Shown: positions 61,979-64,000 of the stretch, piece after piece
Numbering within the stretch: the stretch's first letter is position 1
Layout of the letters: the number at the start of each line of letters is the position of its first letter
Assembly (NCBI RefSeq): GCF_002931555.1
Contig: NZ_PSTZ01000007.1
Coordinates: 744,001-808,000, forward strand
Origin: Pseudoclavibacter sp. RFBB5
GTDB lineage: Bacteria > Actinomycetota > Actinomycetes > Actinomycetales > Microbacteriaceae
Length of the DNA: 64,000 nt
Direction: 5' to 3'
Made by a program: the position numbers and the translations under genes
The notes under the pieces: model-generated
Database searches by the model: none
Told to the model about the DNA's origin: nothing
What the model saw: the letters and a program-made list of their open reading frames with translations, nothing else

Positions 61979-62040
61979 GTTCCGTTTCCTGGCGGGCCTG
62001 CCGCCTGTGGACAGCGGCGGCGCGTGTCGGAGGTGCCGGG

Positions 62041-62046
62041 TAGCGT
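62041..62046 (+). promoter_or_regulatory. Possible -10 element (TAGCGT) for the TagA-like gene
   Basis: TAGCGT lies 89 nt upstream of TTG 62136, which would give a leader of about 80 nt. Weak support. Confidence 0.25.
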
Positions 62047-62135
62047 TCTGCGCACAGCAGGTTCTCGATCAGCGCCGTCCGTGTCCCTTCCGGTTCGCGG
62101 AGATTGCAGGATTCCGCATCCGGAGAGGAAAGCCC

Positions 62136-62750
62136 TTGCCAGCTACCAGCATCACCCCTGACCTCGTCGTCGGCGAGGATGGCCTCGCCCGGCCGCTGTG
62201 GGCGAGCCGCGACGAGCTGCTCATGCAGTACTACGACACGGAATGGGGCATGCCCGTCACCGACGAGCGTGGCGTCTTCGAGCGGTTGTGCCTCGAGATC
62301 TTCCAGTCCGGGCTCTCTTGGCGCCTCATCCTGCAGCGGAGGCCGTTGCTGCGCGAGGCGTTCGCAGGTTTCGACGTCGACGCGGTGGCCGGGTTCGGCG
62401 ATGACGACTTCGAGCGACTGATGAGCGACCCCGGAGTGATCCGGAACCGACTGAAGATCTCGTCGGTCATGAGGAACGCTCGCGCGACGGTCGCGCTGCG
62501 CGAGAGCGAGCCACTCAACGAACTGGTCTGGGGCGCCAAGCCGACGACAACGCCGAGACCCGCGTCAGCGGCAGACGTGCCCAGCTCCAGCGACGAGTCG
62601 CGACAGCTCACGAAGAGTCTCAAGGCGCGCGGCTTCAGCTTCGTCGGCCCAACCAACCTTTTCGCCCTCATGGAGGCCATCGGCATCGTCGACACGCACC
62701 TCGTCGGCAGCCATCGTCGCGGTACATCCGGCGTGTGGCCGGCGGACTGA
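62136..62750 (+). CDS. DNA-3-methyladenine glycosylase I-like protein with degenerate zinc site
   Basis: 204 residues from TTG 62136, chosen because GGAGAGGAA lies just upstream and the frame before it is not family-like. It aligns along its length with E. coli Tag: YYDTEWGMPV, FERLCLEIFQSGLSW (catalytic Glu and Trp kept), PGVIRNRLKISSVMRNARA and KSLKARGFSFVGPT. Of the four zinc ligands in E. coli Tag, three are replaced (Cys4, His17 to Tyr, Cys179 to Ser) and only His175 remains (VDTHLVGSHRR). It may be a structural variant without zinc, or a glycosylase with altered specificity. Confidence 0.85.
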   Translation: MPATSITPDLVVGEDGLARPLWASRDELLMQYYDTEWGMPVTDERGVFERLCLEIFQSGLSWRLILQRRPLLREAFAGFDVDAVAGFGDDDFERLMSDPGVIRNRLKISSVMRNARATVALRESEPLNELVWGAKPTTTPRPASAADVPSSSDESRQLTKSLKARGFSFVGPTNLFALMEAIGIVDTHLVGSHRRGTSGVWPAD

Positions 62751-62780: not shown

Positions 62781-62815
62781 CCCCGACTCCCCAGTGTTCA
62801 ACTGGGCAGTCGGGG
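62781..62815 (-). terminator. Rho-independent terminator read on the minus strand, possibly of a lost ssrA
   Basis: Arms 62781-62794 and 62802-62815 form a 14-bp stem with one mismatch. On the minus strand it is followed by TTTTGTT, a proper T tract. No minus-strand gene ends here except the ssrA-like 3' end at 62840. It can also act after the TagA-like gene in the other direction. Confidence 0.75.
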
Positions 62816-62839
62816 CCTTCGCTCATGACGTGGGTTTCG

Positions 62840-62870
62840 TGGAGATGGGGGGAATCGAACTCGCGCCGGA
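62840..62870 (-). other. tmRNA (ssrA) 3'-end remnant, probable attachment-site scar
   Basis: Read on the minus strand, this segment is nearly identical to the 3' end of bacterial tmRNA: a GTTCGATTCC T-loop followed by the acceptor strand CATCTCCA. The T-stem is damaged by mismatches. The 5' two-thirds of tmRNA is absent on the right, where protein-coding frames lie instead. The 3' end of ssrA is a common integration site, so I read this as a duplicated att half. It is followed on the minus strand by a T-rich terminator. Confidence 0.6.
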
Positions 62871-62983
62871 CCCCCGGAACGACGCGAGCAGTCTCTCGCA
62901 CCCCGTCGTTCCAGGGGTTGGCAAGAGTGACGGGGGGTGCGAGGGAGGGCCAAGTTTCGCGAAGTGTGGGCAGAATGTGGGCA
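62871..62983. repeat. Nested inverted repeats and short direct repeats beside the ssrA scar
   Basis: CCCCCGGAACGACG (62871-62884) pairs with CGTCGTTCCAGGGG (62905-62918), one mismatch. CTCGCACCCCGTC pairs imperfectly with GACGGGGGGTGCGAG further right. TGTGGGCA occurs at 62965-62972 and again at 62976-62983, an 11-bp period typical of integrase arm sites. The arrangement fits an attachment region; no integrase gene is inside the window. Confidence 0.5.
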
Positions 62984-63025
62984 CGGTAAGGCCCGCTGTC
63001 GGTGGCCTGTGCGAACATCCCCGGG

Positions 63026-63538
63026 ATGAACGAACCAGCTGTGCAGGTCACCGCCGACGTCGCCCTCGAGTCGCTCGCGCTGCGGTGCGAGACCGTCGCC
63101 GAGCGGGTTGACTCGAAGTGGACGAAGCGCATCGTCTGCTGGCGTCCCGTCGCGACCCGCCCCGTGGACGACATGTCATGGCTCATCTGGGGCGAGACGC
63201 CCCCGCTACGAGAGGTCGACGGCGTGCTCGTGCCGGTGCCCGTGACTGTCGACGGCGACTCCTACGAGCCGATCATCCTCGAACCGCTCGAGGTGTTCGA
63301 CGCATGGCTCGAGCTGCTGCAATGGGTGACCGAAGGCGACGTGCGCGCCGAGGTGCGCCACGCGCTCGATGCCGGGACCATGAGCCAGAAGGAGTGGGCG
63401 ATCTCCCACGGCAACGCGCAGATCCGCGGCACCGTCACGCTCGAAGGCGACGCCCTGGCCGCCGAGCGCCTCGCGTCCGAGCTTTCGATCGCGCTGCTCT
63501 ACATGGCGCAGCGGGCTACGAGGAAGAAAGGCTGGTGA
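63026..63538 (+). CDS. Hypothetical protein, not recognised
   Basis: 170 residues from ATG 63026. It is acidic and soluble, with Trp-rich segments (RIVCWRPVATRP, DDMSWLIWGETPP) and a C-terminal helix (AAERLASELSIALLYMAQRATRK). There is no signal peptide or known motif. The residues AGTMSQKEWAISHGNAQIRG suggest a short helix-turn element, but I would not call DNA binding. It is the first gene beyond the ssrA scar and may be cargo of an integrated element. The ribosome site is weak. Confidence 0.6.
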   Translation: MNEPAVQVTADVALESLALRCETVAERVDSKWTKRIVCWRPVATRPVDDMSWLIWGETPPLREVDGVLVPVPVTVDGDSYEPIILEPLEVFDAWLELLQWVTEGDVRAEVRHALDAGTMSQKEWAISHGNAQIRGTVTLEGDALAAERLASELSIALLYMAQRATRKKGW

Positions 63539-63648
63539 GCCTCCTCGCGGTCGTTGGGCGGCTATGTCGCCCGGGATGCTGGCTCTTCGAGGTCATCTGA
63601 AGCCGTCAGAGATGTAGCGCACCCGTAGGCAACCGAGAACGCCGCGGT

Positions 63649-63654
63649 TACTGT
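63649..63654 (+). promoter_or_regulatory. -10 element (TACTGT) of a leaderless promoter
   Basis: TACTGT is 6 nt upstream of ATG 63661, the same spacing as at hisN and the second lipoprotein gene. Confidence 0.45.
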
Positions 63655-63660
63655 AGGGGT

Positions 63661-63867
63661 ATGACCACGATCACTGTTCCCGATGAGCAGCTCCTCGAGC
63701 TCGTCGCATGTGCCGTGGTTGCAGACGAGGTTGAATCGCCCTACGATCTGGAAGTCCTCCGGTCTTGGCCTTCACCCGTCCCCGAGATGGTCTCTTTCGT
63801 GCTCACGTTCTGGCGAGACGAGTACCGGGCACCCACGTTCGCGGAATTCGCTACAGCGACGTCCTGA
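63661..63867 (+). CDS. Small hypothetical protein, not recognised
   Basis: 68 residues from ATG 63661, acidic, with TVPDEQLLELVACAVVADEVE at the start and VSFVLTFWRDEYRAPTFAEF near the end. There is no membrane span or metal motif. GC3 is somewhat lower than in the core genes, which fits acquired DNA. The leaderless-type promoter element supports it being real. Its function is unknown. Its last 17 nt overlap an open frame on the other strand. Confidence 0.5.
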   Translation: MTTITVPDEQLLELVACAVVADEVESPYDLEVLRSWPSPVPEMVSFVLTFWRDEYRAPTFAEFATATS

Positions 63868-64000
63868 CCGTCGCTTGGAAGCGCATCAACGTGCACGCTT
63901 CCACTGTGTTCGCCCCGATCTGCCGAAGCGCCGACGAGACCTGTGACATGGGCAGGTGTCGAGCATCGACCCACTGCTCCCATTGCTTCTCCAACAGGCG
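63851..64000 (-). CDS. 3' end of a gene entering from the right edge (partial, not recognised)
   Basis: The minus-strand frame is open from the right edge to TAG at 63851-63853, 49 codons, with about 80 percent GC at third positions. It encodes a plausible C-terminus (LEKQWEQWVDARHLPMSQV, ending QATVRTSL). I found no family match. It is too short to be sure, and it conflicts by 17 nt with the small plus-strand gene. Confidence 0.35.
   Translation of the reverse strand, partial: RLLEKQWEQWVDARHLPMSQVSSALRQIGANTVEACTLMRFQATVRTSL

Follow-up and report, generated by a model that had tools for sequence, protein, structure and literature searches.

The window, by which we mean the whole 64,000-nucleotide stretch of Pseudoclavibacter sp. 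RFBB5 DNA analyzed here, carries near its right end a Tag glycosylase gene, the 3′ end of an ssrA (tmRNA) gene with its terminator on the minus strand, an inverted repeat, a pair of short direct repeats, and an open reading frame (Table 1). The ssrA piece comprises the T-loop, the 3′ half of the T stem, and the acceptor end (bounds from ARAGORN), and window position 62839 corresponds to the ssrA 3′ end at C1:853294. A first-pass annotation, made from the sequence alone, had read minus-strand positions 62870 to 62840 as the T-loop and acceptor end of tmRNA; the ssrA end stands, but the start does not, since positions 62861 to 62870 are not ssrA and the true span is 62860 to 62839. The terminator that it had placed next to this piece was borne out as a strong hairpin. 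Over the whole window ARAGORN called no tmRNA, and the Rfam tmRNA covariance model scored 12.6 bits at the scar against a gathering score of 47; the scar is therefore a fragment of ssrA, and a functional tmRNA at 62839 to 63300 was rejected on the same two results.

Nested inverted repeats had also been noted beside the scar. These are present between the putative attachment core and the direct repeats, although they fold only moderately better than shuffled sequences on either strand. They may serve as a terminator of the phage or as a site for a protein.

Table 1. Features surrounding the ssrA scar, in window coordinates
Feature	Position	Strand	Evidence
Tag / 3-methyladenine DNA glycosylase gene; host gene after the ssrA terminator in empty-site congeners and left flank of the prophage	62007..62750	+	Pfam Adenine_glyco, E 4.1e-59; adjoins ssrA in L089, L090, L091
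Distal att copy, exact 80-bp repeat	62781..62860	-	Twin at G000:C1:853236-853315; single copy in empty-site congener L090
Orphan intrinsic ssrA terminator	62781..62815	-	-32.2 kcal/mol, z -7.08
Final 22 nt of ssrA, displaced (T-loop, 3′ half of the T stem, acceptor end)	62839..62860	-	Mapping of the ssrA 3′ end
Prophage left end, continuing past the window to C1:853235	62861..64000		Integrase at C1:852118-853212
Inverted repeat between core and distal arm pair	62892..62946		z -2.70 (+), -2.47 (-)
Distal putative arm-type pair TGTGGGCA-N3-TGTGGGCA	62965..62983	+	Matching pair at C1:853179-853197, within the 3′ end of the integrase gene
First prophage ORF at the distal end	63002..63538	+	Without family match

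A prophage between two copies of the ssrA 3′ end

An intact ssrA gene lies on the minus strand at C1:853294 to 853660, 46.5 kb to the right of the scar (ARAGORN; Rfam, 170 bits). Its tmRNA encodes the tag peptide ANAKRTDFALAA (ARAGORN), and smpB is located ~2.4 kb upstream (Pfam; E = 3e-59). The 80 bp that form the ssrA 3′ end and terminator are repeated exactly and in direct orientation at the scar. Delimited by these repeats is a prophage of 46,455 bp (G000:C1:806781 to 853235, one 80-bp att copy counted), whose tyrosine integrase gene abuts ssrA and runs towards it; at the far end, the displaced repeat is adjoined by the host methyladenine glycosylase gene. The first-pass annotation had supposed an element integrated at the ssrA 3′ end and occupying the sequence to the right of about 62.87 kb. 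The prophage does extend from there to C1:853235, and the intact minus-strand ssrA, the tyrosine integrase beside it, and the second att copy are all found at its other end.

PHROGs families matched 19 of the 20 prophage proteins given. The matches were to an integrase, a repressor, a metallo-protease (IrrE-like by Pfam), RusA, an exonuclease, RecT, and a DnaB-like helicase, with a large helicase having methyltransferase matches, an RtcB-type ligase, and a ParB-methyltransferase protein in addition. The prophage is of siphovirus type with a complete complement of structural genes: there were matches to the large terminase, portal, head protease, capsid, major tail protein, tape measure, minor tail, and tail fiber, and one protein had a weak virion-protein match. 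The tRNA-splicing-ligase/RtcB-type protein (L007:13468-14646, minus strand; PHROG E = 7.4e-132) is a neighbor of the helicase with methyltransferase matches. Pfam searches of five small prophage ORFs returned no excisionase; one of the five matched Cro/C1-type HTH families above cut-off. The best integrase relative among the INPHARED matches listed was 41.8% identical.

Congeners show the site without the insert. In G008 (locus L090), sequences 89.5% and 92.1% identical to the two flanks directly adjoin each other and have one copy of the 80 bp in common, and ssrA, terminator, and tag glycosylase gene stand together without an insert in G004, G006, and G008. The tag gene adjoins ssrA in three of eight congener ssrA loci; the remaining five gave no tag match in the locus DNA examined, one of them (L095) having a weak integrase match. 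In congener G005, a 136-bp block 95.6% identical to the attR described here (L092:1846-1981) begins at the ssrA T-loop and stops at the edge of a TGTGGGCA-type pair, and neither an integrase nor a tag match follows it in that locus; the block looks like a relic of a decayed element or a different element at the ssrA site. Two results had been named beforehand as contrary to insertion, a complete tmRNA at the scar and the same insert-free segment in relatives lacking a second ssrA end, and neither was found. The first observation of the scar is thus confirmed, and its reading as an integrated element is supported.

The 46-kb span could instead be a defective element or several elements rather than one mobile unit. 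The core and arm-pair block that stands alone beside ssrA in G005, with no integrase match, speaks for this, as it implies that decay or exchange at the ssrA site happens. Against it, matches to an integrase and a repressor, to the replication and recombination proteins exonuclease, RecT, and helicase, and to terminase, portal, protease, capsid, tail, and tape-measure proteins all fall within one span, bounded by an exact repeat and by one arm pair per end, and a 44.7-kb IMG/VR contig (2848438205_000001) carries an identical integrase, an identity known for the integrase alone. We regard a defective or composite element as very improbable.

We conclude that a siphovirus-type temperate prophage in the ssrA 3′ end has its distal att site at the scar, with putative TGTGGGCA arms and a proposed code at integrase residues 18 and 28 (below), and give this reading a probability of about 0.92. 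The phage's own lambda-type tyrosine integrase would integrate the 46,455-bp element into the ssrA 3′ end. Because the phage carries an ssrA 3′ end and terminator, ssrA would be made whole again next to the integrase gene, its former 3′ end being displaced to window positions 62781 to 62860. A prophage in the tmRNA gene is in itself ordinary and textbook: another temperate phage using and repairing ssrA.

TGTGGGCA pairs at prophage ends

The TGTGGGCA direct repeats beside the scar, 11 bp apart at 62965 and 62976, had been reported by the first-pass annotation and likened to integrase arm sites, a guess that the sequence evidence below strongly supports, with the integrase as the presumed binder. 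Searching the 3.77-Mb genome for TGTGGGCA-N3-TGTGGGCA (≤1 mismatch) yielded two occurrences, C1:806965 (window 62965) and C1:853179, each in plus-strand orientation; there were none of the reversed control pattern. The two pairs are at the prophage ends, the copy beside ssrA lying within the last codons of the integrase gene, and their presence there is not due to chance. In the predicted excised attP, the core lies between the two pairs, which point the same way at a distance of 241 bp from each other, so that repeated arm-like sites stand on both sides of the core, as in a lambda-type system. At this locus the arm pair is 115 bp from the ssrA end, a departure from the ~91 bp of tRNA sites that counts against the reading.

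Across genomes of the family, 99 exact hits were distributed over 44 of 199 genomes (reversed control, 0), and neighboring hits separated by 1 to 120 kb were on the same strand in 27 of 29 cases. Against this stands a phylum-wide sample, in which only 5 of 396 genomes had the exact motif. The motif was also found in 24 of 25 IMG/VR records, with two copies in 5 of the 25; since these records (of 80 loci) were hand-picked, mostly for already showing the motif, 24/25 is not a rate. Contigs with two close pairs under a looser pattern had spacings of 183 to 286 bp (15 rows, 12 distinct segments). By pattern, a tRNA T-arm lay between the two pairs in four rows, and the end of a protein gene did so in four segments. 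In one of the contigs, the last 26 residues of ribonucleotide reductase NrdF are encoded between arm pairs (L136:4202-4279, minus strand; best E = 7e-11), which makes nrdF a likely attachment site of those related phages. Segments similar to this one were seen in L144, L146, L237, and L357/L358. A core was sought in five IMG/VR records and found in two; in one of them, G216, 125 bp are common to both ends, which could be an assembly overlap.

DNA sites within integrase codons

We assembled integrases from 160 loci (80 genome, 80 viral), which formed 128 clusters at 90% identity; because these and the test integrases below were picked by similarity to this integrase and four others, they are not a random sample. 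Between −200 and +250 of the stop codon, 66 of the 128 had a TGTGGGCA pair (≤2 mismatches), and there was none in either control, the reversed motif in the same windows or the motif 1400 bp upstream. Consecutive exact copies of TGTGGGCA were spaced by 11 bp in 47 of 48 cases.

In 54 of the 66 occurrences the pair is read in the frame that encodes VGxxWA, as would be expected if the repeats were a protein-level motif of the integrase C-terminus and not DNA sites. The other 12 argue against this, being in other coding frames (5), overlapping the stop (1), or after the stop (6). When integrases were chosen by the protein motif alone (50 of the 128), the V, G, and A codons were GTG, GGC, and GCA in 50/50 each, against backgrounds of 0.416, 0.525, and 0.133, respectively; even the infrequent GCA was invariant. 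Further, the second copy at the present locus is not part of the integrase gene but stands across the core from it. Position points the same way: a tRNA was present within 1.2 kb of the integrase stop in 47 of 80 genome loci, and in 26 non-redundant loci (5 others with a tRNA and a tandem not fitting TGT-NNN-CA were left out) the arm tandem was a constant distance from the tRNA 3′ end (median, 91 bp; sd 3.0) but not from the stop (sd 50.8). A peptide motif as the source of the repeats was rejected on frames, codon fixity, and distance to the tRNA end, and we consider it barely credible.

Variant arms and a proposed two-residue rule

Among the 62 integrases without the motif, 20 had another exact 8-bp tandem with an 11-bp period between −120 and +60 of the stop. 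Tandems of this period were absent from the control region (0), and the other periods of 9, 10, 12, and 13 bp gave 0, 0, 2, and 1, respectively. Many variant tandems fit the form TGT-b1b2b3-CA, which was present in 81 of the 128 integrases (control, 0/128). The TGTGGGCA pairs thus belong to a conserved class, TGT-b1b2b3-CA every 11 bp, mostly from Actinobacteria, and these are likely integrase sites.

The central triplet was tabulated against the integrase sequence in 80 unambiguous rows, the query integrase included. Over all 364 alignment columns, the highest covariation was that of residue 18 with b1 and of residue 28 with b3; the next-ranking columns include the tail, 356 to 360, which encodes the site itself. 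GGG occurred with R18 and D28 in 60/60 rows and AGT with Q18 and G28 in 3/3 (for the Q18/G28 class, TGTAGTCA would be the matching site). TGT was accompanied by A/S/T at residue 18 and T/C at residue 28 (6/6), TGC by L/V/I and Q/S (4/4), and GGT by R/R/N and T (3/3), and single or few rows paired GGC with R and Q (1), GTC with R and S (1), and GCC with R and K (2). As inferred from these rows, R at residue 18 would specify G at b1, Q would specify A, and small or aliphatic residues T, while at residue 28, D would specify G at b3, T/G/C would specify T, and Q/S/K would specify C.

Both residues fall in the predicted arm-binding domain. The integrase N-terminus matched Pfam Arm-DNA-bind_4 (23.4 bits; cut-off, 22.3), and an AlphaFold2 model (mean pLDDT, 85.7) has strands at residues 3 to 9, 12 to 20, and 26 to 32, followed by a helix at 35 to 51; in this domain of three strands and a helix, residues 18 and 28 belong to strands 2 and 3, respectively. 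In lambda and Tn916 integrases, the three-strand sheet enters the major groove of arm DNA. Foldseek matches to the model include DNA-bound lambda integrase (PDB 1z1g and 5j0n), with 14 to 16% sequence identity in the fold matches. The TGTGGGCA pairs flanking the core would accordingly serve as arm-type sites for the integrase's N-terminal beta-sheet domain, with one pair of the excised attP inside the integrase's last codons and with residue 18 reading b1 and residue 28 reading b3, as the covariation suggests.

The rule was written down before new integrases were fetched. From a test set of 228 loci, 117 that were ≥90% identical to training integrases were dropped, leaving 95 non-redundant integrases; viral scans with other integrases contributed few new sequences. 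A tandem was recognizable in only 28 of the 95 (control, 0/95). With a fit of one of the two units sufficing for a correct prediction, the rule gave b1 correctly in 25 of 26 scorable cases and b3 in 20 of 23. The incomplete fits came from four loci (L472, L473, L487, and L545). Of 24 integrases with R18 and D28 and no tandem near the stop, 17 carried a TGTGGGCA pair at another place in the locus or in inverted orientation, compared to 3 of 23 others; in the remaining 7, the pair was absent from the locus DNA examined. Two R18/D28 integrases, those of L020 and L068, have the pair inverted relative to the gene.

The pairs might also be sites for another protein, such as a repressor or an excisionase, their covariation with the integrase reflecting only phage kinship. 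Excisionase sites, too, flank cores in lambda-type systems. We counted independent pairs on a tree built by a quick method without the N-terminal domain and the tail (105 rows kept, after removal of test rows with unequal units or an unaligned N-terminus and of the two training rows whose units differed). On supported branches, b1 agreed in 5/5 pairs, which are few (5 pairs only; P = 0.0625) and leave kinship some room. For b3, however, 8 or 9 of 10 pairs agreed and 0 were opposite (median P = 0.004). That the top-covarying columns are residues of the integrase's own arm-binding domain, and that the rule predicts unseen integrases, likewise runs counter to another binder, which we judge very unlikely.

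We therefore favor recognition by the integrase and think it probable that a large, mostly actinobacterial integrase clade uses one arm grammar: TGT-b1b2b3-CA every 11 bp, placed in codons (any frame) or just after them, with residues 18 and 28 largely setting the sequence, independently of attB (tmRNA, various tRNAs, or nrdF).

Relation to known integration systems

Lambda attP has arm sites on both sides of the core, and lambda integrase has arm-binding, core-binding, and catalytic domains, as does the integrase here. The present system differs from lambda in its tmRNA target, in its 11-bp tandem arm pairs, one of them within int codons, and in an integrase identity of 14 to 16%.

According to PMC3203893, cluster K1 mycobacteriophages (CrimD, Adephagia, Anaya, and Angelica) target tmRNA and have pairs of 11-bp arm-type repeats. 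The prophage described here shares with them its position at the tmRNA 3′ end, a tyrosine integrase, 11-bp arm pairs around the core, and a terminator between the core and one pair. In K1, however, a 24-bp core is found on the 5′ side of int and the two arm pairs face in opposite directions, whereas here the core is 3′ of int within an 80-bp repeat and the arms are direct and partly coding; the arrangement is thus not that of the K1 cassette. From four phages, the same source proposed N-terminal integrase residues 17 and 19 as candidates for arm specificity, while terming the arm specificities of some related integrases ill-defined. By hand alignment, CrimD residues 17 and 19 are residues 16 and 18 here. 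At the equivalents of residue 18 and b1, CrimD has L and T, which fits the rule, although its repeat does not end in CA; since candidate residues had been proposed and CrimD fits, the two-residue idea has a precedent (PMC3203893). Within 8 kb of CrimD searched, there was no TGTGGGCA pair within 3 mismatches; CrimD carries a GTTGATG-type 11-bp tandem instead, and TGTGGGCA arms in this phage were rejected.

In cluster J (Omega and BAKA), as given in parts of PMC3706429, attP also lies 3′ of int, with the core ~100 bp from the int end and direct arm pairs on both sides of it; cluster J differs in its tRNA-Leu target and its 10-bp repeats, the consensus of which begins TGCATAC, and arms and N-terminal differences showed no systematic relation there. 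Bifidobacterium prophages Bb447phi1 and Bb1192phi1 (~41 kb), like the present one, are actinobacterial prophages at the tmRNA 3′ end, but with a 26-bp att repeat in place of 80 bp and without arm sites in the part of PMC6109161 that describes them. Corynebacterium phage IME1320_01 has an exact 11-bp tandem, CTCCGTCAAAA, in the codons of its integrase tail, a short way ahead of the annotated attP-L (L353:2642-2667), alike in placement to the TGTGGGCA pair and different in sequence. Literature searches built on TGTGGGCA, TGTGGGC, and GTGGGCAAA returned nothing relevant among the matches listed. The motif, its coding overlap, and the rule had no report in the text searched, which included parts of PMC3203893, PMC3706429, PMC6109161, and PMC8138268; as evidence of absence this is weak.

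Implications

In this prophage, a DNA site is maintained within the codons of the gene whose product presumably binds that site. The 19-bp signature marks both ends of the prophage and, judging by same-strand pairing, probably those of many others. Natural variation yields a testable two-residue rule with out-of-sample support and, if the rule is true, the sequence of an integrase alone would predict its arm sites and the ends of its prophage.
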